Shown in pieces: positions 44,559 through 64,000 of a DNA stretch of 64,000 nt. A model generated the notes under the pieces. The model did not search any database, had not been told where the DNA came from, and was given only the letters and a program-made list of their open reading frames with translations. The DNA lies in contig MCFE01000081.1 in NCBI GenBank assembly GCA_002104905.1, positions 116,028 through 180,027 of the forward strand. The letters run 5' to 3'. A program made the translations under genes and the position numbers. This DNA comes from Basidiobolus meristosporus CBS 931.73 (Eukaryota > Basidiobolomycota > Basidiobolomycetes > Basidiobolales > Basidiobolaceae). Position 1 is the first letter of the stretch. Each line of letters starts with the position of its first letter.

Positions 44559-44699
44559 TATTTGGCACCCAACGTGGGGGGTTCATACAAGCTCCCTAGG
44601 ACCCAACAAGATTTACCTGAAGATTTGAGCTGTTATCCACCTATTGAAAAGAGACTACCGATATTACCAAGATTACAACACCAACATACCTGCCCAAAA

Positions 44700-45962
44700 A
44701 TGAACTCTATGCCATTACCACTCTCACATGGAGCCCCACAGTTTGATGGAAAGAATGTGGAGAGCTTCATATTCAAATGGGAGAAGCTCTGCAAGATGTG
44801 CAGCCTATCTGAACAAGAAATGGCTGAAGACTTCCCCTACTACTGCACCGATGATATTACCACTAAGCTTCTCAGACAAGGAGACATTCTCACTGACTGG
44901 GCCTTAATGAAGACCTACCTACAGACCAAGTATGGTAGACCCCAGATATACTATGGAATTGAAGACCTCAGGCACTTTGGAAGAACTGGACTTTCCAAGC
45001 TACCACTTGAAGAGTTCATTCAACAGTATGAAGATATGGCCAAGCCACTCCTAGAGTCCCAGGCTATAACTGAGTTTACCATGACACTTTACCTTGCACA
45101 AGGGCTTCCCCAGGACTTGGCAAGGAAAGTTGACTTACATGCAGCCAAGGATGACAAGTCTGGCATTCCTTGCTTTGCAGAGATGAAACGTGTTCTCCTA
45201 GAGGCAAAGCAAACTTCTACCTTTATGAGACTCCTGACATCTAATCTGCCAGACCAGTCAACCAAGGAGCCAAGGAGTGCTGCTGCTGACAATCAGACCT
45301 ACACTACCGACAGAATTGACCAACTTGCTGAACAGCTACAAAAGCTAGCCCTCAAGATTAATGGCTCAGCTGAGGTTGCTACTGAGGGACAAAGACCTTT
45401 GCCTAGGCACTGCATCTGGTGTGACTCTACTCAGCATGCCAGACGAGAATGCTCAGAGCTTAGCCAGCTACTCAGAGAAGGAGCAGTACAGTTTGATGCT
45501 GATGGAATGCTTGCTGACAAGGAAGGAAGAAGGATTCCCACTAATTTCCGAAGAGGAGGGATGAGAGCCCTTTTCCAGAAATCTGACTCAGCAACCAGAA
45601 AGATTACTGTTGATGCCCCTATTGGGACACATAAAGTGAATCCAAGCAGCCCTGACAACAGACAATATGAAGTTGATGCCTTTGCTACCAAAAGACACCT
45701 CCCTGAAGAACCTGCCAAACCCATCCTTAGAAGACCACAATTTGAAGAACCTGAAGTTGTTATTGACAAGAGGCCTAGTATGCTGCCCACCCAAAATCCA
45801 TCGCCTCACTTTCAGATGACCTCAAAGATAGCAAGCTACTCAAGCCCTCAACTGATTACTGAGAAGCTGCTGAAGCAGAACCTCACTTTGTCGGTTGGAG
45901 AAATCATGAGTGTATCCCCATCTGTTAGGAAGACCTTTGATGAGCAGCTTAGAACAAGATGA
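44700..45962 (+). CDS. Gypsy Gag-like protein
   Basis: First ATG at 44700 (MNSMPLPLSHGAPQFDGKN). The retrotransposon Gag fold is suggested by FDGKNVESFIFKWEKLC, DWALMKTYLQTKYG, LEEFIQQYEDMAKPLL and LAQGLP. A Cys/His cluster (CIWCDSTQHARREC, C-x2-C-x4-H-x4-C) forms the zinc knuckle. It ends at TGA 45960-45962; the next ORF is in the same frame, so the stop may be a nonsense change in what was a longer Gag-Pol. Confidence 0.85.
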   Translation: MNSMPLPLSHGAPQFDGKNVESFIFKWEKLCKMCSLSEQEMAEDFPYYCTDDITTKLLRQGDILTDWALMKTYLQTKYGRPQIYYGIEDLRHFGRTGLSKLPLEEFIQQYEDMAKPLLESQAITEFTMTLYLAQGLPQDLARKVDLHAAKDDKSGIPCFAEMKRVLLEAKQTSTFMRLLTSNLPDQSTKEPRSAAADNQTYTTDRIDQLAEQLQKLALKINGSAEVATEGQRPLPRHCIWCDSTQHARRECSELSQLLREGAVQFDADGMLADKEGRRIPTNFRRGGMRALFQKSDSATRKITVDAPIGTHKVNPSSPDNRQYEVDAFATKRHLPEEPAKPILRRPQFEEPEVVIDKRPSMLPTQNPSPHFQMTSKIASYSSPQLITEKLLKQNLTLSVGEIMSVSPSVRKTFDEQLRTR

Positions 45963-45977
45963 CAAGCTGTTGAACAT

Positions 45978-46592
45978 ATGGACACTCATATAATTCAGAC
46001 AAACCATGAAGACCACCAAAAGGATGACAACACTACTGAATATAAGACCTTTTACTCAGTTGCAACTGCTGTGGTGAAAGGGTATATATATGATGACCCT
46101 GTTGACTGCCATATTGACAGTGGCTCAGAGATTTGTGTTATGCCGCTAGACTTCTGGAAGACACTTAAAAGCAAGGAGCTACTGCCTGTTGATAGAGATA
46201 TTGGATGGAACATGACCGATGCAAACTCAGGATCTAGTCCACTCTATGGTGTAGTACACAAGTTTCCTATTGAGGTACAAGGAATCAAGGTCTGGCTTCC
46301 CCTCTTCATCTGCCAGAAGGCAAACTTTGACCTTCTGCTAGGTAGACCATGGGAAACCAGTACTAAGGCTACAACTACCAACTATTCCGATGGGTCAGTA
46401 TGGTACACCATACAAGGATCCAATCCAGGACTACAGTCAACCTTCTGTGGTGTAACACCCAACAATAAGAGGACACATACTGCTTGCCAGAAGGCACATC
46501 TTGTTATGGAAGAAGATGAAGAGCCTGACAATATACACCCCAACATTTGGAGCTGCTCATTAGGTATACAGGAGCAAACAGCTATGGTTTGA
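45978..46592 (+). CDS. Gypsy aspartic protease segment
   Basis: Same frame as Gag and RT. The active site is HIDSGSEICVMP (D-S-G) with the flap-distal LLLGRPWE, typical of gypsy retropepsins. Bounded by in-frame TGA at 45960 and 46590, with another at about 46622; at each of these a Trp (TGG) would read sensibly, suggesting G-to-A damage. Confidence 0.8.
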   Translation: MDTHIIQTNHEDHQKDDNTTEYKTFYSVATAVVKGYIYDDPVDCHIDSGSEICVMPLDFWKTLKSKELLPVDRDIGWNMTDANSGSSPLYGVVHKFPIEVQGIKVWLPLFICQKANFDLLLGRPWETSTKATTTNYSDGSVWYTIQGSNPGLQSTFCGVTPNNKRTHTACQKAHLVMEEDEEPDNIHPNIWSCSLGIQEQTAMV

Positions 46593-46787
46593 ACAAAATA
46601 CAAGACAGTAGAACAGAAGATTTGACCATCACTTACCCCACTGACTGATGGATCTCGACCTGCTGATTACATTAGACCACCAGAAAAAACACCAGATGAT
46701 ATACGACTTACACCTGAGAGACTTAAGCAACTTATCATTGGTGATGGAAACCTAACACCAGAGGAGATACTATTATTCAAGGAGACC

Positions 46788-48419
46788 TTGAAAAGGCATG
46801 ATAAGGTCTTCTCGTATAATGACAAGGAGATGGGACTCTTAAAGACATCGGTTGAAAAACCTATCAAGATTCATACAGTGCCACACACACCCTGGTCATT
46901 TAAGCCTTACCCACTGCCCAGAGGACTCCAAGCTGATGTGCATGACCTACTTAAGAAGAAGATAGAAGCTGGCATCCTAGAACCTTGCCATGGACCCTAT
47001 GCTAACAGATGGTTTGTGACCAAAAAGAAGAATGGAAAGCTCCGATTCATTCAAGACATGCAACCTGCAAATGCTGTCACTATCAGAGATGCTGCTATAC
47101 CTCCATCTATTGATGACTTTGCAGAAAGCTTTAGTGGCCACTCCATCTACTCAACATATGATCTCTACTCAGGATATAACCAGATCCCCCTTGATGAGAC
47201 ATCAAGAGATATGTTTGCACTACAGACACCATTTGGACTGTTAAGGATGACAAGACTCAGTCAAGGGGCTACAAACTCCGTGGCTCAGTTCCAGAGATGC
47301 ATGGTAAATGTGCTGTATCAGTTTATACCTGAGAAACTTGCTGTCTTTGTGGATGACATAGGCATCAAAGGATCAAAATTCTGGGACACCACTGAAGTTA
47401 TGCCTGGAGTAAGAAAGTTTGTCTATGACCATATTGCAGACAATGATGCCATATTAGGAGCCATTGAAGAAGCTGGACTCACCATCAGTGGTGAGAAAAG
47501 CAGCTTTGGTGTATCAGAGATATCCATTGTTGGACAAAAATGCAACACCTTTGGTCGTTCACCTGGAGACTCCAAGACACAAAAGATATGCAACTGGCCT
47601 ACCCCCACAAATCTCACACAAGCTCGTGGCTTTGTGGCTGCTTGTGGGCTCTTTAGGATCTGGATCCCAAGATTTTCTGAGATAGCAGAACCAATTTACC
47701 AACTACAGAGAAAGAACACCCCATTTATCTGGGGAGAAGAGCAAGAAGAAGCCATGCAATTACTGAAAGAGGCCTTAGTATCTCCACCAGTTCTGAGACC
47801 TCTTGACTATCAAAACACTGAATGCCCACCTATTTTGACAGTGGATGCAAGCCCCATAGGAGCTGGAGCACTACTTGGACAAGATGATGAAGATGGCAAC
47901 CGCTATGCCTGCAGATATGAGAGCTGCCTACTCTCTCCTAGAGAACAAAGATACTCACAGATTAAGAGAGAACTACTAGGAGTTGTAAAGATGCTGAGGA
48001 AACTGAAGTCACAACTCTACATGACACATTTTATCCTGGAGACAGATGCCAAGCCACTGACAGGAATGATCAACAAGCCTGACCTACCTGATGATGCCAC
48101 AAACCAATGGATGGCATGGCTGAAAATGTTTGACTTTGAGGTCAAACATATCCCTGGCAAGACAAATGTTGTGGCTGATGCACTCTCCAGGAAGGGACCA
48201 CAATTATTTGAAGACTTGGACCCTCACTTTGATGATATTATTGATGCAGAGATCCAACAGATTGCCATCAAAGACCAAGAGAGAACTACCTGGAGCCTGA
48301 TCAAGGAATATCTAAGGACACTTAAGAAACCTAGTTGGATGGATATTCAGGAGTTTAGAAACTCAGGAAGAAGGCACACCACTACTATCTTAAAGATGAT
48401 CTTCTCTTTAAGCGAGTGA
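46788..48419 (+). CDS. Gypsy reverse transcriptase / RNase H
   Basis: RT: GILEPCHGPYANRWFVTKKK, RFIQDMQPANAVTIRDA, YSTYDLYSGYNQIPL, TPFGLLRMTRLSQGATNS, LAVFVDDIGIKG (F-V-D-D catalytic box). RNase H: ILTVDASPIGAGALLGQ, YSQIKRELLGVVKML, FILETDAKPLTGM and the linker KHIPGKTNVVADALSRK. The true frame probably extends upstream of 46788. It ends falsely at 48417-48419 because of a 1-nt shift at about 48360-48375; the integrase continues in another frame. Confidence 0.92.
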   Translation: MKRHDKVFSYNDKEMGLLKTSVEKPIKIHTVPHTPWSFKPYPLPRGLQADVHDLLKKKIEAGILEPCHGPYANRWFVTKKKNGKLRFIQDMQPANAVTIRDAAIPPSIDDFAESFSGHSIYSTYDLYSGYNQIPLDETSRDMFALQTPFGLLRMTRLSQGATNSVAQFQRCMVNVLYQFIPEKLAVFVDDIGIKGSKFWDTTEVMPGVRKFVYDHIADNDAILGAIEEAGLTISGEKSSFGVSEISIVGQKCNTFGRSPGDSKTQKICNWPTPTNLTQARGFVAACGLFRIWIPRFSEIAEPIYQLQRKNTPFIWGEEQEEAMQLLKEALVSPPVLRPLDYQNTECPPILTVDASPIGAGALLGQDDEDGNRYACRYESCLLSPREQRYSQIKRELLGVVKMLRKLKSQLYMTHFILETDAKPLTGMINKPDLPDDATNQWMAWLKMFDFEVKHIPGKTNVVADALSRKGPQLFEDLDPHFDDIIDAEIQQIAIKDQERTTWSLIKEYLRTLKKPSWMDIQEFRNSGRRHTTTILKMIFSLSE

Positions 48420-49552
48420 AACCTGGACTTATGCCAAGAAGAGTAGTCACTACCCCTCAAGAGCAACTGAACATCATGACAAGTATCCACCAAGGTGAAC
48501 CAGGAGGACATAGAGGACAAGAAGCCACATACAATACTACAGCTCAGAGGTACTACTGGGAAAACATGTACTATGATATCCAACACTTTGTTGAGTCATG
48601 TGTAGCCTGCCAGAAGAGATCCTCAAAGCGTTATGAAGAACCACTGCATCCTACTTACACAATCTGTCTATGGCAAAAGGTTGGTATTGACCTTGTCCAC
48701 ATGCCAACAGCTGGATCAAAAAAGTACCTGATTGTTGCTAGAGATGACCTTAGTGGATGGGCAGAGGCTCAAGCCTTGCCCAACAACAAGAGCCATACCA
48801 TATGGAGATTTATACTTGAAGACATCATCTGCAGATTTGGCTGCATCCAACAGTTTGTTGCTGACAGAGGAGAGATGACATCCCAAATGATCCAGGAGTT
48901 GTGCTCAAAGTACAAGATACACATTGCTTTTACAACAGCTTACCACCCTTAAGCCAATGGAATGATAGAGAGAGGACATGGACCATTGGTGAACTCTCTT
49001 GTCAAGACCTGTGAGAATAACACAACACTGTGGCCACAGCAATTACATCTAGCACTCTGGGCAGATAGAATTACTACTAAGAGGACAACTGGATTATTGC
49101 CATTCAAGCTACTCTATGGACATGACTGCATACTACCAGTTGAGTTAAACACAGTCACTTGGAACTCATTGAATTGGAGATCCAATATGCAGACTGAAGA
49201 CCTCCTTGCAACTCGCATACAGCAACTTGATCACCATGACTTGAATATCAGCAGAGCTGCTGAACAACTTAAGGATACACGACTAAAGAACAAGGTGCCC
49301 TTTGACAAATCACACCCAACAAGACCAAAACCACTATCACTAGGAGACCCAGTATTACTCTATGATTCTACCTTGGACAAGCAATGGAGTCGGAAGTTTG
49401 ACAACAAATGGACTGGCCCCTACCTCATTTCCAAAGTGATTGGAAATGGAAGTTATTACATATCTGAGCTTGACAACACCCAGTTGAGAGCACCAGTTGC
49501 TGGAAATCAACTTAAGTTATTCAAGCATAGGAATTTTGCACATCAAGATTAG
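48380..49552 (+). pseudogene. Gypsy integrase, with nonsense codon
   Basis: Starts HHYYLKDDLLFKRVKPG, then the zinc region HQGEPGGHRGQEATY...CVACQKRS, and the core VGIDLVHMPTAGS, VARDDLSGWAEAQ, FVADRGEMTS and TTAYHP. There CAA has become TAA (48951-48953), and ANGMIERGHGPLVNSL continues in the same frame to 49552, with a C-terminal chromo-like/GPY region GPYLISKVIGNGSYY. Confidence 0.88.
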
Positions 49553-51116: not shown

Positions 51117-51295
51117 CAATCATCTGTGCCAACCTCATAGTGTCAGATTGTGCCATAGTGTGCAAGATTGTCCCACATAGTGCAAAATTGTCCTAGAACA
51201 ATCCTGCCTACTGGTAGCTAAAATATTGCACCCAATTGTTCTTTACAACCACGGATTGCGCCACGCACCCTGGCATGGTACAATGAAACAAGTCT

Positions 51296-51541
51296 ATCAA
51301 GTACATCATCCTGCCTGGGGATAAACTTTGCGTAGATCCGCACAGATCTGAGTGAATTAGATCTGGTTTTTTTAGTTTTGATAAACCCAGAGCTCTTAAA
51401 TGGTTGTCTGGCTTGATTCTCAAGTATGCAGACTTCACAGTGCTCCAAATTAGCTGAGGGATCAATTTTTACTCCGGAAATTAGCTGATCTTTGATCATT
51501 TAGCTCAATGAATCAAACTGATGTGTCCAAATCTCATGTGC
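51296..51541 (-). mobile_element. Distal part of the split minus-strand copia element
   Basis: Encodes (minus) MIKDQLISGVKIDPSANLEH, CEVCILENQARQPFKSSG and, after a frame slip, LSPGRMMYL. These adjoin the LITFIDNYTRY that begins the piece at 41144. It ends without LTR at 51541, where telomere repeat begins. Confidence 0.85.
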
Positions 51542-51555
51542 TAGGGTTAGGGGGG
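51542..51555 (+). repeat. Internal telomere repeat sealing the copia breakpoint
   Basis: TAGGGTTAGGGGGG starts immediately after the copia reading stops (…CATGTGC). About two telomere units, then the first LINE 3' end. Confidence 0.9.
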
Positions 51556-51609
51556 AGACAGTTAACAACAGGTGAAATCTTTATTTCAGTTGAAACAAAG
51601 AAGCCAGCG

Positions 51610-54378
51610 CTAATGTTGTAGCTTTGATACAAGAGTGTGTAGCTGAGGGGAATTTGTTGGCAAGTTAATGAGAAGTGATGATAGCTCTTCAGTGCTCAAG
51701 ACACTGTTTGGTGGGAAGGGGGGTAGCAAGAGAGGTAAGAATGACTTGTGAACAACATTAATGAGGGGAATTTGATAAGGATTGATATTGATCATAAAGG
51801 GAGTGTGCTGCTGCAGATATTGCTGCCGAAGGTCTGTCAAGTACTTCAGGTAGGCCAGCTTGGGTTTTTCTGACTGCAGAATATAGTGTGCAAACTTCTT
51901 GACTTCAGGATCTCCAAGTATAGTTCTCCAGCAGGAGCCAGGTGTTGTGTGGTGTGTTCTCTTCCAGGCCTTAATCAGTGGGTTGTTGCAGTTGTAAAGT
52001 CTGAGGTATGATCTGGTTCTAAGGTAGAGAAGTCTGATCTTATAGGGCATAAACCCAAAAGCACCAAGAATAGCATGTCTGTAGGGGCATTCAGGCAAAT
52101 GAGGCACCAAGGAGGTAATGCACCATACTGCAAACTTGTCAAGCTTAGTGCAGTCTCTAGAAGTAAGAGAGAGAAGTGGTAAGCCAAATTCCAGGACAGG
52201 GAAGACAAACTGCTTGAGTAGAAGGAGGCAGCTGGGAGCTGAAGTTGTAGGAGGAGTAACAGCCAGTAGCTTGTGGAGTGCCTGTCTTGCCAGGATAATT
52301 CTCTACTTCAGGTGTGCTCCAGAGTCTAGTCCAGTAGGAAGGAAAGGAAAGCCAAGATATGTAGCAGAAACCTGAGCAGGTAGAGTGGAGTTCTCCAAGT
52401 TGATGGGAGAGCCCAAAGGTACTGTCTTTGCAATGGAAAGCTGGAGATTATTCTTCTGCAGATACTGGTGGATGGTCTGGGAGTCTTGTTGCACATTGGA
52501 GGAGGATATTCTGATGTCATCAGCAAAGAGAGTAACCAGGCAGTCAGCTGAGAGTCTTGGGAAATCATTCAGGAAGATGGCAAACAGTATAGGACCAAGC
52601 ACAGAGCCTTGAACCACTCCATTAGGAACTGAGAACACAGCTGATTGCTCACTTGGGTGCAGAATTCTTGCTTGTGGATCCAGAAACAGAGACCTGACAA
52701 GGAGGGTGAGAGAGGTACTGGAGAAGCATTGCAACTTGGACCAAAGCAGATTTCTGTCAACTGAATCAAAGGCCTTAGTAATATCAAACAGAACTGAGGG
52801 ATACTTGCACTGGAGAGAGTGATCTTGGCTAAGTATGACTGCATATTCAAAGGAGAGGCCAGGAACACAGCCAAACTGTGCAGGATGAAACTTGAGGGAG
52901 GCAGAGTAGAGCTCCTGGGCAAGCAGAAGCTCAAACACCTTTCTGCAGGTGGGCAGCAGAGATATTGGCCTGTAGGAGCTAGGATCCAGGTGCTTTCCTT
53001 TACCCTTGTATAGTGGCAGAACATTTGCAAAGGACTATTCCTCAGGAGTAGAAACCTGGGCTGAGCATTGCTGAAACAGTGGAAGCAGAAGTGCAGACAT
53101 GGCCTTGGTACTAGTCTTCAGAAGCTCATAGGATATTGTGTCCACACCTGGAGCAGTAGAGTTGGGAAGCCTCTTGAGCACATTATAGATTCTCCCTTGA
53201 TCAAGTGCAAGTGGGATGGGCAGAGTCTTGAAGTCAGGATGAAAGCCAGGAGTTGAATACTGCTTTGTAGAGAAGAAGATGTTAGCCAGCTGTTCTGTTG
53301 AAGGTAACTTCCTGGAAGAGGGCCTCATTGCCCTGTAGAGTCTTGATACTGTTCTTGTTATAGAGTTGGAAGATTGCAGAGGCAAGGAACTCATAATATG
53401 ATCCCAGAGCTGAGTATGCAGAGTGTGGTGAATTGCCTTGGTGTGGTGTATTGCTGTCAGGAGGAGTTTCTCTGTTTTTGGGTTAGGGAAACTCAGGTAG
53501 CTTTGTTGCAGGGCTGAAACAATGGATTCCCATTTTCTTGAGGTAACAGCAGTAGTCTTGCATGGCAGTGAGAGGGAGGCAGACACCAGAATCAGATGCT
53601 TCACAAGGAGCCAGGCATAGTTGAGATCATCAGGCAGAGAAAGTAGCAAGCTGGCAAGCTTCAAGTAGTTCCCAAAGTCTTTCTTCTGATTCTTGGTAGC
53701 TCTGTGGGTGAGCACAGTAAGTTTTGGCAGCTTCTTCTTCACAACTGGTTCCATAGAAAGGGACCAGGCTGGGTGGTCAGAGGCTCTCAAGGATCCTTGC
53801 TCAGCTCCAGAGAATTGCTTAACTTCATTCACAAAGTAGAGGGCAGCAGCAGAAGGGCAGATCCAGTCAACACATCTTTTCTCAGATTGAGCACCTAGTG
53901 CTAGCAGATGGCTTTCTCTCAGGAAGTTCAGTAGGAATGTAGACCTTGGCTTTATTCTTGCAGTCAGAGTAGTCTTGTTCTCAGGATGGGGAATGTTGAG
54001 ATCTCCAAGCAAGATAATAGGTGTTGATACAGATTGCTGGTATTGCTGAACTTTCTGGCATATAACTTGCACTTCCTGAAGGGCAAGACTTGGAGGCAGA
54101 TAGCAGAGCACCAGACTGATAGTTGGCAACTGGAGAGCAGCACAGTAAGGGGAGTAAAGAGGAACACAGAGCTGAGGAGTATTGATGGTAGAAGAGATGA
54201 AGCAGACAGAGGAGGTATTCTTTGTTCTAGGAGTAGAAAAGCAATATAGATTAGTCAAAAGTATAGAGGGTAGCTGGACATCAATCAAACACAGGAGGGA
54301 AAATCATGAAAGAAGTCTCTCTGAAGTTGGTCTTGATGGCTGTATGCTGTTGCAGTTAAGCAACAGAACTTCAGGTAG
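51610..54378 (-). pseudogene. LINE ORF2: APE endonuclease and reverse transcriptase (copy 1)
   Basis: Same frame as ORF1. Endonuclease landmarks: LLLNCNSIQPSRPTSERLLS near the start, TPIILLGDLNIPHPE (catalytic GDLN) and RASDHPAWSLSM (SDH). RT: WSFANVLPLYKGKGK, SYRPISLLPTCRKVFE, SVLFDITKAFDSVDRNLLW, NGVVQGSVLGPILFAIFLND and LFADDIRISSSN (F-A-D-D box). The C-terminus has no RNase H; it ends KLQH-TAG at 51610. Premature stops at about 54304 (TGA), 53035 (TAG) and 52303 (TAG). No copy in the window preserves a full intact ORF2. Confidence 0.92.
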
Positions 54379-55887
54379 TCAGCCAGAGGTTGTAGCTTCT
54401 TCAGAGGCAGCATTGACAATGTGACCTGCAGAGTCCCAGAGCTCTTCAAATGGTGCATCACTTAAGTCAGCAAGGAGGGAAATGGCATGGTTATTGAGGA
54501 AGTATGCCACATCATAGGAGGGGGCTTGTCTCTTGATGGCAGCAAAGAAAGACAGAATGGCAACATGGGCTGGAGGCTTGTTGAACAGTAGAGAGTCAGA
54601 GAATTCAGATTCTTCAGGCACTATCTTGAAGTCAGTTTTCAGCCAGTTAAGGTTCTTCTCCACAAAGGCAACAAATGGGTCAGCAATGTTTTGGTCTAGG
54701 ATAACCTCCAGAATCTTCCCTTTTCTCCAGGCCAGGTTGACAACTCTTGAGAGCTGAATATTGCATGCCTTGAGTGCTTTCCTGATGTTGGAAATGGGAG
54801 TCCAGGGAACTTGCTTCAAGTACACCACAGTCCAGGTAGAAGCTGGTGGTAGGTTTGCTGGGGGCTTGTAAGTCCTTCTGTGTGGCAATGGAGCTGCAGT
54901 AGTCAGATTGGAGTCCACATTCTCAGTAGAGGGTTTTCTTGATGTGTCTTGCTGAATGGTACTGGAGCTGGATGTGCTGATAATTCTTGCTAGAACCTTG
55001 CCTGCATAAGTCTGAGGTATAGCTGAGGTGAATGTAGAGGTGGTGGCAGCTGGTGCAGGTGGAGAGGCAGAAACTGAAGCAGGAACTGAGGTCACCTGGG
55101 AGAAGGCAGTAGAAGCAGGTTTTCTGGGAGGAACAGAGTTCACTATCCAGTTGTTCTGTAAAACACTGGAGTAGCTTTTCTGTGGAACAGGATCTTGCTC
55201 TTGAACAGGAACAGAAGCAGGAGGCTGGGGCTGAGCAGTAGTGGTAAGGCAGTGGCACTCCAAGGAAGCTTTTTGCAAGGCATCTCTGGTAGCTTTCAGG
55301 GCAGTATTGGCTTCATTCTTGAGCTTCTTGCATTGGGCATCCAGTCTCTTGTTTTCAATAGCCAGGGCAGTATTGGCAGCCTCTAAATCAGCAATTCTCT
55401 TCTCAATTGCAAGGAATCTCTGAAGAAATGCATCAGTAGAAGTGCTGGCATCTGGGAGAGCAGTGGCAGGAATAGAGTCCATTGACAGTGGGCTTCTTGG
55501 AGGCAAGGAAAGTGGACTGGCAGATTCAAGCACAAAAGGAGATATCCTGGCAGGAGGAGAAGGAGTATCCAAGGCAGTAACAGAGGCAATTCTTGTTGGT
55601 GAAGCAGCAGCAGGGGAGGCAAGCCTGTTCAGAAACTGGGCAGGAGAGAGTGCTTGAGGAGAGGGAGTCTTCAGCTTGCCAAGCATGTCTTCCATCAGAG
55701 TGATACCAATATTCCTGGTGCATTTGCAGAGAAAAGTAAGCTTCCTGAGTCTGCCAGCTCTTCCATTCCTTCTGATAGTTCCTTTGTTTCCACAGTTGGG
55801 GCAAGAAATCTTCTTGACAGACTTGTCAAAGCAGTCAAGAACCTTCCTTTCAGGTGTAGTGGGCTCCTGTTGAGGTTTTGGTGGCAT
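54379..55887 (-). CDS. LINE ORF1 protein
   Basis: 502 residues from ATG 55887 (MPPKPQQEPTTPERKVLDCF). A Cys-rich zinc-ribbon-like head reads CPNCGNKGTIRRNG...FLCKC. Then a Ser/Ala/Pro-rich region, a coiled coil (about residues 165-215: FLAIEKRIADLEAANTALAI...), a second low-complexity stretch, and a conserved C-terminal domain (TWTVVYLKQVPWTPISNIRK ... ILEVILDQNIADPF ... ELWDSAGHIVNAASEE). The layout (zinc ribbon, coiled coil, C-terminal domain) suits an RNA-binding LINE ORF1 product that coats element RNA. The C-terminal domain is shared with the solitary protein at 56415. It ends at TGA 54379-54381, with ORF2 continuing in the same frame. Confidence 0.82.
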   Translation of the reverse strand: MPPKPQQEPTTPERKVLDCFDKSVKKISCPNCGNKGTIRRNGRAGRLRKLTFLCKCTRNIGITLMEDMLGKLKTPSPQALSPAQFLNRLASPAAASPTRIASVTALDTPSPPARISPFVLESASPLSLPPRSPLSMDSIPATALPDASTSTDAFLQRFLAIEKRIADLEAANTALAIENKRLDAQCKKLKNEANTALKATRDALQKASLECHCLTTTAQPQPPASVPVQEQDPVPQKSYSSVLQNNWIVNSVPPRKPASTAFSQVTSVPASVSASPPAPAATTSTFTSAIPQTYAGKVLARIISTSSSSTIQQDTSRKPSTENVDSNLTTAAPLPHRRTYKPPANLPPASTWTVVYLKQVPWTPISNIRKALKACNIQLSRVVNLAWRKGKILEVILDQNIADPFVAFVEKNLNWLKTDFKIVPEESEFSDSLLFNKPPAHVAILSFFAAIKRQAPSYDVAYFLNNHAISLLADLSDAPFEELWDSAGHIVNAASEEATTSG

Positions 55888-55956
55888 ATCCAGAGTTTCA
55901 GCTTCAAATTTCAATTTTTGAGATTTTTGGGTGATTTTTGATGGGCAGGATCAAAA

Positions 55957-55970
55957 TTAGGGTTAGGGTT
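55957..55970 (+). repeat. Internal telomere repeat
   Basis: TTAGGGTTAGGGTT at the 5' edge of LINE copy 1. Confidence 0.92.
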
Positions 55971-56318
55971 GCGCGCTGTGACTGCTTTTTACGATTGCAA
56001 GGTCAGAACCTAGGAAAAAATAAAAATAGTTAGTAAAGGTGATTTAATGGATGGATGGATGGATTCGGAGTCAGATTCAATCAAAATATCAAATTGTTGA
56101 CTAATTTAAAAGAGCAGAAAAAATAAAAATAGTTAGTAAAGGTGATTCAATGGGTGGATGGATGGATTTGGAGTCAGATTCAATCAAAAAATCAAATTGT
56201 TGACTAATTTAAAAGAGGAAAAAATAAAAATAGTTATTAAAGGTGATTTAATGGATGGATGGATGGATTTGGAGTCAGATTCAATAAAAAAATCAAATTG
56301 TTGACTAATTTAAAAGAG
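55971..56318. repeat. Three-copy minisatellite between telomere islands
   Basis: About 40 bp of unrelated sequence (GCGCGCTGTGACTGC...), then three tandem units of roughly 103 bp. Each contains AAAATAAAAATAGTTA, GGTGATT(T/C)AATGG, a short TGGA/GGAT run, GGAGTCAGATTCAAT and AATTGTTGACTAATTTAAAA. No coding signal. Confidence 0.85.
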
Positions 56319-56325
56319 AGGGTTA

Positions 56326-57307
56326 GGGGATGATAATCACCACAGGGTGAAATCTTTATTTAATCATAAATAAAGAAGCAAAGTTCAAATATGAATATTT
56401 GAGATGCAGTAAGCCTACAAGATAAACTTGGACTTTGCTGTATCCCAAATATCCTCAATATCAAAGTCTAGAGGAGAATGTAGCAAAACTGCTTGTTCAC
56501 TGTAGTATTTCTTGAGGAAGTTTGTGACTTGAAGGGAAGGAGAGTTTTTCAACAAGCTGGTAAACATTTTGAGGAGTTCTTTTTCCAGAGAGAATGGTAC
56601 AAAGAGTGGAATGTCTAAATGATGTCTGAATATATGCTCTGAGGGCTCCCAATCCAGCATATTTTTGACTTCCTCTGTAAAATCTTCAACAATATCTTTG
56701 TCAAGAATAACTTCCAAGAGATCCCTGGCAATGTACTGAATGTTAATAATCTTAGGCATATGAATACCTAGGTCCTTGAGGTAGTTTCTTTGTTCTGAAA
56801 TTGGGAGATAGCCAGCATTTCTGAAATAGCAAACAGCCCAGTTGGCAGTGGGAGGAGTATCAGGGCTGACAGGGAATCTTCTTCTGGCTTTAGGGAGCAC
56901 TGGCTTAGTTGACTGTCTTGTTGGAAGGGCAGCTGGCTTTGGATGATCTTGAAGTGCTTGGGAGTATGTCTGAGTATGAATGGCAGGAGTAGCTGGTTGC
57001 TGACAGTGATCAGATTGACTGGAGGAAGTGCTGGTTGAGGGGTTGCAAGGTAAGGAAGAAGCTGAAAGAGAAGTAGAGAGTGCAGGGTGAAGTTCAGAGA
57101 GAGTTTTGAAAAGAACCTGGATCTGAGATTTCAACATTGAGTTTTCAGCTTCAAGAAGAGAAACTCTTTGTTCAAGGTAAGAGGTCTGTAAAGAGTGAAA
57201 GCTGGGTAAAGACATAGAAGTAGTAGATAATAAGAAGAAAGGAGTAGTTGGGGTGGGAGGGTGGAAAAATAGTCAAGAAGAAAAGAGAGGAAAGATCTGA
57301 AATTGAA
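56326..57307 (-). mobile_element. ORF1-only non-autonomous LINE relative
   Basis: Bounded on both sides by telomere-type repeat. Its 3' end (left) reads TTAGGGGATGATAATCACC..., and on the minus strand AATAAAGATTTCACCCTGTGGTGA: the same tail and hairpin as the LINE. Encodes only the 266-residue ORF1-like protein; no endonuclease or RT. Confidence 0.8.
56415..57215 (-). CDS. ORF1-like protein of the non-autonomous element
   Basis: 266 residues, intact, ATG at 57215. Starts with a coiled coil (SYLEQRVSLLEAENSMLKSQ), a Ser/Thr/Pro-rich middle, then a C-terminal domain TANWAVCYFRNAGYLPISEQ ... LLEVILDKDIVEDF ... IEDIWDTAKSKF. This aligns with the C-terminal domain of LINE ORF1 (STWTVVYLK..PWTPIS ... 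ILEVILDQNIADPF ... ELWDSAGHIV). It lacks the zinc-ribbon head. The frame is preserved despite lying in a repeat graveyard. Confidence 0.78.
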   Translation of the reverse strand: MSLPSFHSLQTSYLEQRVSLLEAENSMLKSQIQVLFKTLSELHPALSTSLSASSLPCNPSTSTSSSQSDHCQQPATPAIHTQTYSQALQDHPKPAALPTRQSTKPVLPKARRRFPVSPDTPPTANWAVCYFRNAGYLPISEQRNYLKDLGIHMPKIINIQYIARDLLEVILDKDIVEDFTEEVKNMLDWEPSEHIFRHHLDIPLFVPFSLEKELLKMFTSLLKNSPSLQVTNFLKKYYSEQAVLLHSPLDFDIEDIWDTAKSKFIL

Positions 57308-58817
57308 GGGTAGGGGGGAGACAGTCACCAACAGGTGAAATCTTTATTTCAGTTGAAACAAAGAAGCCAGCACTACTGTTGTAGCTTTGATACAAGAGTG
57401 TGTAGCTGAGGGGAATTTGTAGGTAAGTTAATAAGAAGTGATGATAGTTCTTCAGTGCTAAACACACTGTTCAGTGGGAAGGGGGGTAGCAAGAGAGGTA
57501 AGAATGACTTGTGAACAACATTAATGAGGGGAATGTGATAAGGATTGATATTCATCATAAAGGGAGTGTGCTGCTGCAGATATTGCTGCCAAAGGTCTGT
57601 CAAGTACTTCAGGTAGGCCAGCTTGGGTTTTTCTGACTGCAGAATATAGTGTGCAAACTTCTTGACTTCAGGATCTCCAAGTATAGTTCTCCAGCAGGAG
57701 CCAGGTGTAGTGTGGTGTGTTCTCTTCCAGGCCTTAATCCGTGGGTTGTTGCAGTTGTGAAGTCTGAGGTATAATCTGGTTCTAAGGTAGAGAAGTCTGA
57801 TCTTATAGGGCATAAACCCAAAAGCACCAAGAATAGCATGTCTGTAGAGGCATTCAGGCAAATGAGGCACCAAGGAGGTAATGTACCATACTGCAAACTT
57901 GTCAAGCTTAGTGCAGTCTCTAGAAGTAAGAGAGAGAAGTGGTAAGCCAAATTCCAGGACAGGGAAGACAAACTGCTTGAGTAGAAGGAGGCAGCTGGGA
58001 GCTGAAGTTGTAGGAGGAGTAACAGCCAGTAGCTTGTGGAGTGCCTGTCTTGCCAGGATAATTCTCTTCTTCAGGTGTGCTCCAGAGTCTAGTCCAGTAG
58101 GAAGGAAAGGAAAGCCAAGATATGTAGCAGAAACCTGAGCAGGTAGAGTGGAGTTCTCCAAGTTGATGGGAGAGCCCAAAGGTACTGTCTTTGCAATGGA
58201 AAGCTGGAGATTATTCTTCTGCAGATACTGGTGGATGGTCTGGGAGTCTTGTTGCACATTGGAGGAGGATATTCTGATGTCATCAGCAAAGAGAGTAACC
58301 AGGCAGTCAGCTGAGAGTCTTGGAAAATCATTCAGGAGGATGGCAAACAGTATAGGATCAAGCACAGAGCCTTGAACCACTCCATTAGGAACTGAGAACA
58401 CAGCTGATTGCCCACTTGGGTGCAGAATTCTTGCTTGTGGATCCAGAAACAGAGACCTGATAAGGAGGGTGAGAGAGGTACTGGAGAAGCATTGCAACTT
58501 GGACCAAAGCAGATTTCTGTCAACTGAATCAAAGGCCTTAGTAATATCAAACAGAACTGAGGGATACTTGCACTGGAGAGAGTGATCTTGGCTAAGTATG
58601 ACTGCATATTCCAAGAAGTGGCCAGGAACAAAGCCAAACTGTGCAGGGTGAAACTTGAGGGGGTCAGAGTAGAGCTCCTGAGCAAGCAGAAGCTCAAACA
58701 CCTTTCTGCAAGTGGGCAGCAGAGATATTGGCCTGTAGGAGCTAGGATCCAGGTGCTTTCCTTTACCCTTGTACAGTGGCAGAACATTTGCAAAGGACCA
58801 TTCCTCAGGAGTAGAAA
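57308..58817 (-). mobile_element. Telomeric LINE, copy 2 (5'-truncated)
   Basis: The left edge is GGGTAGGGGGGAGACAGTCACC; the 5' end is cut in RT at ...TCCTGAGGAATGGTCC (58817), where GGGTTAGGGG follows. Carries the RT C-terminal half without stops from 58817 to 57373. Intact 3' hairpin TCACC-TGTT-GGTGA. Confidence 0.92.
57373..58817 (-). pseudogene. LINE ORF2 RT fragment (copy 2)
   Basis: Open from the truncation point: EEWSFANVLPLYKGKGK, SYRPISLLPTCRK, FDITKAFDSVDRNLLW, FADDIRISSSN and C-terminal THTLVSKLQQ-stop. Lacks the endonuclease and the RT N-terminus. Confidence 0.9.
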
Positions 58818-60085
58818 GGGTTAGGGGGGAGACAGTCACCAACAGGTGAAATCTTTATTTCAGTTGAAACAAAGAAGCCAGTGCTACTGTTGTAGCTTTG
58901 ATACAAGAGTGTGTAGCTGAGGGGAATTTGTAGGTAAGTTAATAAGAAGTGATGATAGTTCTTCAGTGCCCAAGACACTGTTCAGTGGGAAGGGGGGTAG
59001 CAAGAGAGGTAAGAATGACTTGTGAACAACATTAATGAGGGGAATGTGATAAGGGTTGATATTCATCATAAAGGGAGTGTGCTGCTGCAGATATTGCTGC
59101 CAAAGGTCTGTCAAGTACTTCAGGTAGGCCAGCTTGGGTTTTTCTGACTGCAGAATATAGTGTGCAAACTTCTTGACTTCAGGATCTCCAAGTATAGTTC
59201 TCCAGCAGGAGCCAGGTGTTGAGTGGTGTGTTCTCTTCCAGGCCTTAATCCGTGGGTTGTTGCAGTTGTGAAGTCTGAGGTATAATCTGGTTCTAAGGTA
59301 GAGATGTCTGATCTTATAGGGCATAAACCCAAAAGCACCAAGAATAGCATGTCTGTAGGGGCATTCAGGCAAATGAGGCACCAAGGAGGTAATGCACCAA
59401 ACTGCAAACTTGTCAAGCTTAGTGCAGTCTCTAGAAGTAAGAGAGAGAAGTGGTAAGCCAAATTCCAGGACAGGGAAGACAAACTGCTTGAGAAGAAGGA
59501 GGCAGCTGGGAGCTGAAGTTGTAGGAGGAGTAACAGCCAGTAGCTTGTGGAGTGCCTGTCTTGCCAGGACAATTCTCTTCTTCAGGTGTGCTCCAGAGTC
59601 TAGTCCAGTAGGAAGGAAAGGAAAGCCAAGATATGTAGCAGAAACCTGAGCAGGTAGAGTGGAGTTCTCCAAGTTGATGGGAGAGCCCAAAGGTACTGTC
59701 TTTGCAATGGAAAGCTGGAGATTATTCTTCTGCAGATACTGGTGGATGGTCTGGGAGTCTTGTTGCACATTGGAGGAGGATATTCTGATGTCATCAGCAA
59801 AGAGAGTAACCAGGCAGTCAGCTGAGAGTCTTGGGAGATCATTCAGGAAGATGGCAAACAGTATAGGACCAAGCACAGAGCCTTGAACCACTCCATTAGG
59901 AACTGAGAACACAGCTGATTGCCCACTTGGGTGCAGAATTCTTGCTTGTGGATCCAGAAACAGAGACCTGACAAGGAGGGTGAGAGAGGTACTGGAGAAG
60001 CATTGCAACTTGGACCAAAGCAGATTTCTGTCAACAGAATCAAAGGCCTTAGTAATATCAAACAGAACAGAGGGATACTTGCACT
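58818..60085 (-). mobile_element. Telomeric LINE, copy 3 (5'-truncated)
   Basis: Begins at GGGTTAGGGGGGAGACAG on the left; truncated at ...GGATACTTGCAC (60085), followed by TTAGGGGGGGGG. The RT frame runs from 60085 to 58884 without a stop. Confidence 0.92.
58884..60085 (-). pseudogene. LINE ORF2 RT fragment (copy 3)
   Basis: Starts inside RT at CKYPSVLFDITKAFDSVD and keeps FADDIRISSSN to the normal C-terminus. The open frame appears to extend right of 60085 only because copy 4's 3' UTR happens to be open; that is not a real fusion. Confidence 0.88.
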
Positions 60086-61693
60086 TAGGGGGGGGGAGAC
60101 AGTCACCAACAGGTGAAATCTTTATTTCAGTTGAAACAAAGAAGCCAGCGCTACTGTTGTAGCTTTGATACAAGAGTGTGTAGCTGAGGGGAATTTGTAG
60201 GTAAGTTAATAAGAAGTGATGATAGTTCTTCAGTGCTAAACACACTGTTCAGTGGGAAGGGGGGTAGCAAGAGAGGTAAGAATGACTTGTGAACAACATT
60301 AATGAGGGGAATGTGAAAAGGATTGATATTCATCATAAAGGGAGTGTGCTGCTGCAGATATTGCTGCCAAAGATCTGTCAAGTACTTCAGGTAGGCCAGC
60401 TTGGGTTTTTCTGACTGCAGAATAAAGTGAGCAAACTTCTTGACTTCAGGATCTCCAAGTATAGTTCTCCAGCAGGAGCCAGGTGTTGTGTGGTGTGTTC
60501 TCTTCCAGGCCTTAATCAGTGGGTTGTTGCAGTTGTGAAGTCTGAGGTATAATCTGGTTCTAAGGTAGAGAAGTCTGATCTTATAGGGCATAAACCCAAA
60601 AGCACCAAGAATAGCATGTCTGTAGGGGCATTCAGGCAAATGAGGCACCAAGGAGGTAATGCACCAAACGCAAACTTGTCAAGCTTAGTGCAGTCTCTAG
60701 AAGTAAGAGAGAGAAGTGGTAAGCCAAATTCCAGGACAGGGAAGAAAAACTGCTTGAGTAGAAGGAGGCAGCTGGGAGCTGAAGTTGTAGGAGGAGTAAC
60801 AGCCAACAGCTTGTGGAGTGCCTGTCTTGCAAGGATAATTCTCTTCTTCAGGTGTGCTCCAGAGTCTAGTCCAGTAGGAAGGAAAGGAAAGCCAAGATAT
60901 GTAGCAGAAACCTGAGCAGGTAGAGTGGAGTTCTCCAAGTTGATGGGAGAGCCCAAAGGTACTGTCTTTGCAATGGAAAGCTGGAGATTATTCTTCTGCA
61001 GATACTGGTGGATGGTCTGGGAATCTTGTTGCACATTGGAGGAGGATATTCTGATGTCATCAGCAAAGAGAGTAACCAGGCAGTCAGCTGAGAGTCTTGG
61101 GAAGTCATTCAGGAAGATGGCAAACAGTATAGGACCAAGCACAGAGCCTTGAACCACTCCATTAGGAACTGAGAACACAGCTGATTGCTCACTTGGGTGC
61201 AGAATTCTTGCTTGTGGATCCAGAAACAGAGACCTGACAAGGAGGGTGAGAGAGGTACTGGAGAAGCATTGCAACTTGGACCAAAGCAGATTTCTGTCAA
61301 CTGAATCAAAGGCCTTAGTAATATCAAACAGAACTGAGGGATACTTGCACTGGAGAGAGTGATCTTGGCTAAGTATGACTGCATATTCTAAGGAGAGGCC
61401 AGGAACAAAGCCAAACTGTGCAGGATGAAACTTGAGGGAGTCAGAGTAGAGCTCCTGAGCAAGCAGAAGCTCAAACACCTTTCTGCAGGTGGGCAGCAGA
61501 GATATTGGCCTGTAGGAGCTAGGATCCAGGTGCTTTCCTTTACCCTTGTACAGTGGCAGAACATTTGCAAAGGACCATTCCTCAGGAGTAGAAAGCTGGG
61601 CTGAGCATTGCTGAAACAGTGGAAGCAGAAGTGCAGACATGGCCTTGGTACTAGTCTTCAGAAGCTCATAAGAGATTGTGTCCACACCTGGAG
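60086..61693 (-). mobile_element. Telomeric LINE, copy 4 (5'-truncated)
   Basis: Left junction TTAGGGGGGGGGAGACAG (nine G). Truncated at ...CACACCTGGAGC (61693), followed by TTAGGGTTAGGGTTAAGGGTTAGGG. Longest of the truncated copies. Confidence 0.92.
60151..61693 (-). pseudogene. LINE ORF2 RT fragment (copy 4), frameshifted
   Basis: Starts VDTISYELLKTSTKAMSALL and keeps FADDIRISSSN. A 1-nt deletion at about 60668 (CCAAACGCAAAC versus CCAAACTGCAAAC in the sister copies) shifts the frame; the C-terminal 166 residues are open separately (60651-60151). Confidence 0.9.
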
Positions 61694-61719
61694 CTTAGGG
61701 TTAGGGTTAAGGGTTAGGG
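61694..61719 (+). repeat. Internal telomere repeats
   Basis: About four units (TTAGGG, TTAGGG, TTAAGGG variant, TTAGGGGGG) between copies 4 and 5. Confidence 0.93.
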
Positions 61720-62168
61720 GGGAGACAGTCACCAACAGGTGAAATCTTTATTTCAGTTGAAACAAAGAAGCCAGCGCTACTGTTGTAGCTTTGATACAAG
61801 AGTGTGTAGCTGAGGGGAATTTGTAGGTAAGTTAATAAGAAGTGATGATAGTTCTTCAGTGCTCAACACACTGTTCAGTGGGAAGGGGGGTAGCAAGAGA
61901 GGTAAGAATGACTTGTGAACAACATTAATGAGGGGAATGTGATAAGGATTGATATTCATCATAAAGGGAGTGTGCTGCTGCAGATATTGCTGCCAAAGGT
62001 CTGTCAAGTACTTCAGGTAGGCCAGCTTGGGTTTTTCTGACTGCAGAATAAATTCAGCAAACTTCTTGACTTCAGGATCTCCAAGTATAGTTCTCCAGCA
62101 GGAGTCAGGTGTAGTGTGGTGTGTTCTCTTCCAGGCCTTAATCAGTGGGTTGTTGCAGTTGTGAAGTC
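61720..62168 (-). mobile_element. Telomeric LINE, copy 5 (short, about 450 bp)
   Basis: 3' UTR plus the last about 130 codons of ORF2 (61777-62168). Truncated at ...GTTGTGAAGTC, followed by TTAGGGTTAGGG. Same hairpin tail. Confidence 0.92.

Positions 62169-62199
<31 letters not shown>
62169..62199 (+). repeat. Internal telomere repeats
   Basis: Five units including one TTTAGGG variant, ending in eight G at the start of copy 6. Confidence 0.93.
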
Positions 62200-63246
62200 G
62201 GGGGAGACAGTCACCAACAGGTGAAATCTTTATTTCAGTTGAAACAAAGAAGCCAGCGCTACTGTTGTAGCTTTGATACAAGAGTGTGTAGCTGAGGGGA
62301 ATTTGTAGGTAAGTTAATAAGAAGTGATGATAGTTCTTCAGTGCTCAAGACACTGTTCAGTGGGAAGGGGGGTAGCAAGAGAGGTAAGAATGACTTGTGA
62401 ACAACATTAATGAGGGGAATGTGATAAGGATTGATATTCATCATAAAGGGAGTGTGCTGCTGCAGATATTGCTGCCAAAGGTCTGTCAAGTACTTCAGGT
62501 AGGCCAGCTTGGGTTTTTCTGACTGCAGAATATAGTGAGCAAACTTCTTGACTTCAGGATCTCCAAGTATAGTTCTCCAGCAGGAGCCAGGTGTTGTGTG
62601 GTGTGTTCTCTTCCAGGCCTTAATCAGTGGGTTGTTGCAGTTGTGAAGTCTGAGGTATAATCTGGTTCTAAGGTAGAGAAGTCTGATCTTATAGGGCATA
62701 AACCCAAAAGCACCAAGAATAGCATGTCTGTAGGGGCATTCAGGCAAATGAGGCACCAAGGAGGTAATGCACCATACTGCAAACTTGTCAAGCTTAGTGC
62801 AGTCTCTAGAAGTAAGAGAGAGAAGTGGTAAGCCAAATTCCAGTACAGGGAAGACAAACTGCTTGAGTAGAAGAAGGCAGCTGGGAGCTGAAGTTGTAGG
62901 AGGAGTAACAGCCAGTAGCATGTGGAGTGCCTGTCTTGCCAGGATAATTCTCTTCTTCAGGTGTGCTCCAGAGTCTAGTCCAGTAGGAAGGAAAGGAAAG
63001 CCAAGATATGTAGCAGAAACCTGAGCAGGTAGAGTGGAGTTCTCTAAGGTGATGGGAGAGCCCAAAGGTACTGTCTTTGCAATGGAAAGCTGGAGATTAT
63101 TCTTCTGCAGATACTGGTGGATGGTCTGGGAGTCTTGTTGCACATTGGAGGAGGATATTCTGATGTCATCAGCAAAGAGAGTAACCAGGCAGTCAGCTGA
63201 GAGTCTTGGGAAATCATTCAGGAAGATGGCAAACAGTATAGGACCA
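62200..63246 (-). mobile_element. Telomeric LINE, copy 6 (5'-truncated)
   Basis: RT C-terminal part open from 63246 to 62259, including the FADD region. Truncated within LGPILFAIF at ...TATAGGACCA, followed by AGGGTTAGGGTTAGGG. 3' hairpin intact. Confidence 0.92.
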
Positions 63247-63266
63247 AGGGTTAGGGTTAGGGTTAG
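63247..63266 (+). repeat. Internal telomere repeats
   Basis: Three units of TTAGGG between LINE copy 6 and the SINE, running into a G run. Confidence 0.92.
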
Positions 63267-63792
63267 GGGGGGAGGAAAGTCACCAAGTGGTGAAATCTTT
63301 ATTTACTTATGACAAGTATTTAAAGAAGCCAAGTTAATCTGAAGTTATTCCTAGAAAGCTAGGTCTGAGAGATATCTTCCTGGTAAGCCAGGTCTAAGAG
63401 TTTTGAGGCTGAGTGGTACTATATTTCCTAGTTAGCTAGGTCTGAGAGAGGTTTCCTGGAAAGCCAGGCCTGAGAAGTGAGAATCTGAATATATCTGAGC
63501 TAAGTTATACTGGTTTGTGGTAGCTGAATTGTGGCCGGAATGGCCAGTAGACTGGGGGAACTGAGAGGAATTTCTGGGCGATCACTGGCCAAATTTACTA
63601 GGAAAATCTGGCCAATTAGCATTTCAAGGATTTCAGCCAATCAGAGCCTTTACTTTGCCCGATGGTTGATCAAGCCATCTCCCAATGAGCACACATCAAT
63701 TTTATTAATCAAATTTTGCTGGATCCAGGATTTGAACCCACAACCATGGGTATGGAAGGGTTAGGGATAACCACAAGGCTAAGTGTTCTTGG
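63267..63792 (-). mobile_element. tRNA-derived SINE with LINE-like 3' tail
   Basis: On the minus strand the 5' end has a tRNA-like region: A box TAGCCTTGTGGTTA and, 43-44 nt later, a perfect B box GGTTCAAATCC (plus-strand GGATTTGAACC at about 63728). That is the exact spacing in a tRNA gene, i.e. an internal RNA polymerase III promoter. The body (63343-63480) has four diverged repeats of TTCCTgg..AGCyAGGTCTGAGA. The 3' end, AATAAAGATTTCACCACTTGGTGACTTTCCTCCCCCC in pieces, shares tail and hairpin with the LINE. About 525 bp, no ORF. Confidence 0.8.
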
Positions 63793-63798
63793 TTAGGG

Positions 63799-63809
63799 GG
63801 GGGAGACAC
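63799..63809 (-). mobile_element. Minimal LINE 3' stub
   Basis: TTAGGG is followed by GGGGGAGACAC and then TTAGGG again. GGGGGAGACA is the last ten bases of the LINE 3' end, so this looks like an insertion truncated after about 11 nt. Confidence 0.7.
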
Positions 63810-64000
63810 TTAGGGTTAGGGTTAGGGTTAGGGTTAGGGTTAGGGTTAGGGTTAGGGTTAGGGTTAGGGTTAGGGTTAGGGTTAGGGTTAGGTTAGGGTT
63901 AGGGTTAGGGTTAGGGTTAGGGTTAGGGTTAGGGTTAGGGTTAGGGTTAGGGTTAGGGTTAGGGTTAGGGTTAGGGTTAGGGTTAGGGTTAGGGTTAGGG
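63810..64000 (+). repeat. Terminal telomere array (TTAGGG)n
   Basis: About 32 units to the window edge, with a single 5-nt variant TTAGG at about 63889-63893. G-strand 5'->3' toward the right end, as at a right chromosome terminus. Confidence 0.98.

Follow-up and report, generated by a model that had tools for sequence, protein, structure and literature searches.

The right end of a contig of the early-diverging fungus Basidiobolus meristosporus CBS 931.73 raises the question of how a chromosome end is built when retrotransposon copies and telomere repeats alternate along it. The window analyzed here is the whole stretch of 64,000 nucleotides (nt) at positions 116028–180027 of the 180027-nt contig C1102 (GenBank MCFE01000081.1), one of 1311 contigs in an 89.0 Mb assembly (C numbers denote contigs and L numbers loci). 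The strain was sequenced with PacBio (PMC7466969; unless noted otherwise, published work is cited here from excerpts of the papers). A single-orientation series starts at position 51542 and consists of six copies of a long interspersed nuclear element (LINE), an element carrying only open reading frame (ORF) 1, a short interspersed nuclear element (SINE), and a LINE-like stub of about 10 nt, with short TTAGGG tracts between them. The 3′ ends of all array elements in the window point to the centromere. An earlier account made from the letters alone (the sequence-only reading) had described the same composition, orientation, and direction, and re-reading the window bears it out. TTAGGG occurs 64 times on the two strands of the window compared to 26.9 expected, and none of 100 shuffles reached 64. 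The most probable origin of such arrays, in our judgment, is repeated attachment of LINE copies to chromosome ends by end-primed reverse transcription, with telomerase re-capping the products.

The innermost junction shows what happened to the chromosome under the array. A dispersed repeat (51242–51541, plus strand) is cut there. All five other copies of this flank that were read extend beyond the junction point, and the window switches at it to TAGGGTTAGGG followed by LINE. The 1200 nt that continue the flank elsewhere are missing from 51542–64000; the short (70-nt) hits that one copy gave in this interval correspond to its own 59-nt LINE piece. On C2, a long terminal repeat (LTR) element breaks off at its nt 2337, and from there to the contig end only LINEs and a terminal tract follow. 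Because the distal continuation of the flank is absent and the C2 element is cut likewise, the flank under the innermost copy is truncated, not split by an insertion.

The tracts between copies are very short compared to those that close the ends. Among 85 unselected gaps between array elements, the median length is 8 nt and the maximum 62 nt, and 52 gaps contain no whole TTAGGG; 19 further gaps were set aside because the selecting query began inside a TTAGGG tract. The window ends in a (TTAGGG)n tract of 191 nt (63810–64000, plus strand) that closes the contig, and terminal tracts of 149–237 nt (median 217) were found on 18 of 29 array-bearing right ends. Since the inner gaps are this short and mostly lack a complete repeat, attachment seems to have taken place where almost no telomere remained, and the spacers may preserve a record of how long the telomere was when each copy joined. 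TAGGG lies at most 12 nt upstream in 81 of the first 84 exact LINE tails listed and is absent at C3:164592, C36:168712, and C180:157518. The G-run before AGACAG is 4–12 long across 84 copies (1 in a single copy), whereas an internal G6 run is six long in 57 of 58. This internal control rejects homopolymer error as the main source of the variation, and the variable G-runs beside an invariant internal run point to a new priming event at each 3′ junction. At L034, the junction has no TTAGGG, and the LINE directly follows a GGGG native to another element.

The distal junctions were examined in the same way. In the window, LINE copies 2 to 6, all on the minus strand, are 5′-truncated at different points: copy 2 at 57316–58817 (1502 nt), copy 3 at 58827–60085 (1259 nt), copy 4 at 60094–61694 (about 1602 nt), copy 5 at 61720–62173 (454 nt), and copy 6 at 62202–63248 (1047 nt). 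The sequence-only reading had every 5′ end truncated at a different point; the points do differ, but LINE copy 1 and the SINE are 5′-complete. In the loci read, 24/40 SINE 5′ ends are complete compared to 9/64 LINE 5′ ends; the LINE tally includes a doubly counted end as well as fragments of a divergent LINE. Sixty-one truncated 5′ ends were considered, of which 30 could not be read for phase; three of the 31 readable ends were dropped as a duplicate or over-extended alignments. The remaining 28 overlap TTAGGG by 1.82 nt on average compared to 0.76 nt in simulation, a value matched in 0 of 5000 runs. This overlap resembles telomerase healing. Short copies of about 10–60 nt occur in the window and at L031, L102, L119, L120, L123, and L125, and two of the stubs are terminal and TTAGGG-capped. 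One is that of the window, where a TAGGG-type junction and the LINE-like 3′ stub (63800–63809) occupy 63794–63809 on the minus strand; the other, about 50 nt long, is at L125.

The arrays occupy contig ends genome-wide. The LINE 3′ tail, allowing up to two mismatches, gave 1400 genome matches (1279 forward and 121 reverse), and the reversed control gave none. Positions were assigned on contigs of known length for 30 of the 44 window-query matches listed and for 74 of the 100 exact tails listed (653 in the genome); the other 26 listed tails lie on C1, C202, C204, C205, C210, C217, C224, C225, C232, C236, C237, C244, C258, C269, C280, and C284. Of 40 arrays sampled on contigs longer than 40 kb, 39 point outward, with their start no more than 20 kb from the end they face, compared to 6.9 expected by place alone. 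A control dispersed repeat was oriented 21 plus and 19 minus among 40 scored matches. The single exception is C558, a 218-kb contig with a LINE/SINE array at about 95–100 kb, next to nested LTR elements. Abundant internal copies, which the sequence-only reading had considered fatal to end attachment, were not seen in the sample; the few encountered are on C558 and at the left end of C291. The 18 tract-capped ends sit on LINE in 11 cases (two of them on the 5′ leader), on SINE in two, on the window stub in one, and on other sequence in four. At the opposite contig ends a tract was found in 0 of 15, and old or truncated array elements were found at two of them (L060 and L070). The array end is printed on the right side of contigs about ten times as often as on the left (1279 compared to 121 tails), perhaps an assembler habit. 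The region C558:86000–100000, which includes one nested LTR element with both LTRs, is a candidate for an internalized former end or for a chimeric contig. Outward-facing subtelomeric elements were also seen near both ends of C735 (196824 nt) and C291 (160813 nt). Contigs of about 160–200 kb bounded in this manner hint at very small chromosomes, and the left end of C291 needs checking.

The ages of inner and outer copies were also compared. In 14 arrays with at least two LINE copies, several of them read in part, the innermost copy was the more diverged in 10 and the outermost in 3, with 1 equal; 60 of 5000 within-array permutations were as steep. Leaving out C558 and the left end of C291, which are not clean ends, the counts are 8, 3, and 1 of 12 arrays, with 227 of 5000 permutations as steep. 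In the window, the 3′ 370–400 nt compared in LINE copy 6 match the majority sequence with no differences. The array counts are weak evidence that inner copies tend to be older.

The proteins of the LINE were read from LINE copy 1 (51553–56318, minus strand) and from relatives. The 5′ leader of copy 1 contains (TTAGGG)2 at 55957–55968 and three 101-bp minisatellite units. All six copies that reach this point (L003, L008, L010, L027, L029, and the window) share the same continuation from (TTAGGG)2 into the minisatellite, with one base changed in L029; LINE copy 1 is therefore 5′-complete. The candidate reading of 55957–55968 as a tract between two copies was rejected, as it is part of the leader, which runs to 56318. 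ORF1 (54379–55914, minus strand) encodes 511 residues and matched no Pfam family above the cut-off; its bZIP-like matches are sub-threshold. ORF2 of copy 1 is broken into several frames, and one part (53035–54288, minus strand) contains an apurinic/apyrimidinic endonuclease (APE)-type endonuclease (EN) region with GDLN, VDW, and SDH motifs by eye and a sub-threshold Exo_endo_phos_2 match (23 of 27.4 bits). Close to the right end of C291, one copy contains an open 917-residue ORF2. It gave an RVT_1 match of 91 bits for the reverse transcriptase (RT), Exo_endo_phos_2 at 20.8 compared to a cut-off of 27.4, and in the Pfam scan sub-threshold Exo_endo_phos matches upstream of RVT_1 and nothing downstream. 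As read by eye, the EN retains the motifs N, Y, GDLN (GDxN), VDW (D), and SDH, under motif names that we take to be the standard ones. In motif II, D (CLIDVQL) replaces the usual catalytic E in all four sequences that cover it in the by-eye alignment (the window, L033, P0090, and P0091). The Pfam EN matches are all below the cut-off except that of P0092 (27.5 compared to 27.4). The by-eye motifs and these weak scores agree with the sequence-only assignment to an APE-like class, unlike the restriction-like endonuclease (REL) of MoTeR. A PDB sequence search with the EN region gave no relevant match, and its comparison to P0093 was not significant. Pfam scans of ORF2 gave no match to an RNase H or restriction-like domain, with no REL profile searched on its own. 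The best solved-structure matches of the RT are LINE-1 ORF2p and another RT, and the nearest relatives of the RT part include proteins of the same strain, P0001 (96% identity over 49% of the query), P0005 (80%), and P0002 (62%). A Telomerase RNA-binding domain was detected on C880 as two adjacent matches over the cut-off.

The other array elements share the LINE 3′ end. A hairpin, TCACC(4–6-nt loop)GGTGA followed by ATCTTTATTT, is common to four families: the LINE, the SINE, the ORF1-only element, and EL4. Its z scores against shuffles are −2.35 for LINE, −1.16 for SINE, −2.09 for the ORF1-only element, and −2.24 for EL4. In the window, the ORF1-only non-autonomous element lies at 56329–57300 (minus strand) with a 266-residue ORF at 56415–57215, and the full-length SINE lies at 63269–63793 (minus strand), where its 5′ end bears motifs resembling A and B boxes, judged against what we assume to be the A/B-box consensus. 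A tRNA origin of the SINE was considered and rejected, with no tRNA match in Rfam or ARAGORN; the box-like motifs were identified by eye alone. The 3′ ends read in the genome carry the hairpin and a C-run on the sense strand and no poly(A). A 3′ stem-loop common to LINE and SINE is the arrangement found in what we take to be the stringent type of LINE. As judged from these sequences, the common hairpin suggests that the LINE mobilizes the passengers in trans. Pieces of a second, divergent LINE family were also seen near ends in L016, L020, L022, L025, L043, and L091, with 83–84% identity in L020, L025, and L091. The motif GGGTTAGG recurs inside elements on the G strand of the array (LINE 2, SINE 1, EL4 5, the ORF1-type 5′ repeat 4, and the ORF1-only body 0) and is absent from the opposite strand of all five sequences in which it was counted, with fewer than 0.2 expected in each. 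It lies at window positions 53480, 55960, and 63758, in L023 and L007, and by eye also in the LTR of L038. It is possibly a promoter site, presumably of a Tbf1-like nature, or a pairing site.

These observations would fit the following cycle. The LINE RNA would end in the short hairpin and C-run, and through this C-run, possibly extended by read-through CCCUAA, the LINE ribonucleoprotein would anneal to a G-rich 3′ end left by chromosome erosion or breakage. The RT would then copy the LINE outward onto the chromosome end, an early stop being usual and leaving a 5′ truncation. Telomerase may seed TTAGGG on the end of the complementary DNA through an overlap of a few nt. After further erosion or breakage the cycle would repeat, so that copies stack outward, and the SINE, the ORF1-only element, and EL4 would ride along via the same 3′ hairpin. 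The EN would be dispensable for this cycle. A more far-reaching version is tentative and somewhat less likely to hold than to fail. It has telomerase alternating with an APE-type LINE that primes on the chromosome's own G-rich 3′ end and serves a guild of passengers (SINE, ORF1-only, and perhaps the helicase family FAMX described below) whose RNA 3′ ends pair with TTAGGG. The EN would have drifted, as in the motif-II change from E to D, since ends need no cutting. If this version is true, the LINE would step in as a back-up wherever telomerase has allowed an end to shorten to one or two repeats.

FAMX is a large subtelomeric family with a SNF2-related domain and weak Kelch-like matches, found at L119:4923–9430, at both ends of C735, and on C1024, C577, C80, and others. 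Its start is fixed at TGTAGGTGTT in 9/9 starts read, and 8 of these directly follow TTAGGG behind differing LINE, SINE, or other sequence. The distal cut points vary and are capped by TTAGGG directly or followed by LINE or SINE. Among 167 candidate FAMX matches, the 40 that were scored are 99–100% identical over 226–228 nt.

Several alternatives to end attachment were weighed. The sequence-only reading took the polarity of the array as a signature of end priming that separates it from the elements of Bombyx and Magnaporthe. That argument fails, and polarity was rejected as proof that elements attach to ends: MoTeR arrays share it and have (TTAGGG)1–10 spacers (PMC7367193), non-LTR family 4 of Zymoseptoria (Mycosphaerella graminicola) has one to three TTAGGG at its 3′ end, which always points away from the telomere (PMC4522978), and SART1 enters the TTAGG strand (PMC7265360), a target strand from which its polarity would be the same as here. 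End attachment with telomerase re-capping remains the best-supported reading on other grounds. EN-dependent, target-primed insertion into TTAGGG repeats, as proposed for SART1 and MoTeR, would leave the old distal tract outside the copy. It draws on the EN region of the open ORF2, on a polarity expected from nicking of the G strand, on the TAGGG next to nearly all tails, and on the many copies flanked by TTAGGG on both sides. The sequence-only reading had regarded such flanks as telling against end attachment when joined to target duplications; the flanks are common, and duplications are indistinguishable inside these repeats. Random entry into a tract of terminal length would, however, leave longer inner tracts than those measured, the LINE at L034 joins GGGG where there is no TTAGGG, and beyond the innermost junction the original DNA is gone. 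The argument from tract length would not touch entry confined to the innermost one or two repeats. As the general explanation, we consider such insertion unlikely. Break-induced replication or unequal recombination between interstitial TTAGGG tracts could also build the arrays, with retrotransposition rare, as documented for MoTeR strains after telomere failure (PMC7367193, PMC8381367). The fixed FAMX start behind different sequences favors it, as do recurring LINE truncation points (5/49). Among the five recurring points, one reflects a single end that was read a second time, two belong to the divergent LINE, and two (225 and 3704) are followed by different sequence. Copying of a donor junction would preserve G-run lengths, yet these vary while the internal G6 does not, and outer copies tend, weakly, to be younger. 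We think it quite improbable that recombination of this kind is the main builder of the arrays. An assembly artefact, in which contigs break within repeated arrays, is very improbable indeed. It would account for the 10 of 29 array ends that stop inside LINE and for the odd bias in contig orientation, but breaks in internal repeats predict inward arrays as often as outward ones, and 0 of 40 on contigs longer than 40 kb were inward at a contig end; the tracts that finish 18 of the 29 ends also speak against it.

Attachment to ends thus carries most of the weight, and a number of observations count against it. The fixed start of FAMX directly behind TTAGGG suggests a part for recombination, too, in building these ends, and the recurring LINE truncation points stand on the same side. 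Ordinary target-primed insertion can also give overlap at 5′ junctions. The EN region is 52% identical to a distant relative compared to 61% for the neighboring stretch; because it is kept at this level in an open 917-residue ORF2, cutting is probably used for something. The age gradient is weak and mixed, with three arrays reversed. Internal arrays occur on C558 and at the left end of C291, where an array counted as outward has its outermost LINE 5′ end joined to 1.3 kb of non-array DNA. No telomere tract is present at 11 of the 29 array ends, nor at that of C543; among the 11, besides the 10 within LINE, one stops in other sequence with a divergent LINE piece. The SINE hairpin alone is not clearly stronger than shuffles, and one of the two telomerase matches on C880 contains a TAG, for which an intron is possible. 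EN-dependent insertion and recombination may both contribute beside end attachment.

Other features of the window and of the arrays were noted. Immediately inside the array, LTR-retrotransposon ORFs (44487–49552, plus strand) encode RT, RNase H, and integrase in Ty3 order, a label based on the domain-order rule as we assume it. Farther in, 31115–36209 is a long tandem array of a 57-bp unit with 71 copies in one stretch, possibly a coding repeat. The sequence-only claim that no copy is interrupted by an insertion is correct for the window; elsewhere, LTR elements lie inside arrays at L031, L035, and L038.

Telomere-attached LINEs are best known where telomerase has been lost (flies), where it is undetectable (silkworm), or as REL-type insertions in ascomycetes. 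HeT-A, TART, and TAHRE of Drosophila, which has no telomerase, are like the system here in polarity, end attachment, 5′ truncation, and the pairing of autonomous and non-autonomous partners. The RT of this type of telomere belongs to the Jockey clade. Elements of one polarity at the terminus were observed here as well, and the act of joining would be the same. Unlike Drosophila, which lacks both telomerase and short repeats, this genome encodes a telomerase RNA-binding domain (C880), and its copies are both set apart and capped by TTAGGG. The ends thus look like a hybrid between the fly system and ordinary telomere maintenance. SART1 and TRAS1 of Bombyx are R1-clade, APE-type LINEs in telomere repeats. 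They enter existing repeats, which their endonuclease cuts specifically, and the SART1 RNA is poly(A)-tailed, unlike the elements here with no poly(A) and with very short inner tracts. Among fungal elements, MoTeR2 is the related second element of the MoTeR system and presumably lacks an RT. MoTeR1/2 of Magnaporthe (Pyricularia) form fungal telomeric arrays with the 5′ end nearest the chromosome end and short TTAGGG spacers (PMC7367193), as here. MoTeR and FoTeR also share with the present arrays telomerase-healed 5′ truncations, a related second element (MoTeR2), an LTR element in the arrays (MAGGY), and internal relics (PMC7367193, PMC12857005), and FoTeR of Fusarium oxysporum shares upstream variable-number tandem repeats (PMC12857005). 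Both are CRE-clade elements whose endonuclease is a REL (PMC12857005). The LINE described here differs in its APE-type EN region, two ORFs, 3′ hairpin with a G/C-run, and SINE partner, and the Pfam scan of its open ORF2 did not find the CRE-clade hallmark, a restriction-like endonuclease downstream of the RT. Zymoseptoria family 4, with 34 full-length and 49 truncated copies and 13 tandem cases, was read as a Penelope-like element lacking an endonuclease (PMC4522978). The LINE has an EN region, and its RVT_1 domain has LINE-1 ORF2p among its best solved-structure matches, unlike the TERT-related RT of Penelope-like elements. Zepp of Chlorella and Tx1-1_ACar of anole are also telomere-associated LINEs, in our own reading the L1-like ones of PMC10088271; set beside the present LINE by description rather than by sequence comparison, they differ in hosts and junctions (PMC10088271). 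The main text of the Basidiobolus genome paper contains neither "telomer" nor "transpos" (PMC7466969), and among the titles and abstract openings of open-licence papers listed, mostly in capped lists, none describes telomeric LINEs from Basidiobolus or from early-diverging fungi. What looks new is a guild of an APE-type LINE and a SINE at the TTAGGG-capped ends of an early-diverging fungus, with caps and elements taking turns from one copy to the next at dozens of the ends sampled. Compared to the insect and ascomycete systems, this one allows the LINE to be tested as a back-up telomerase and priming on a G-overhang to be tested without cutting.

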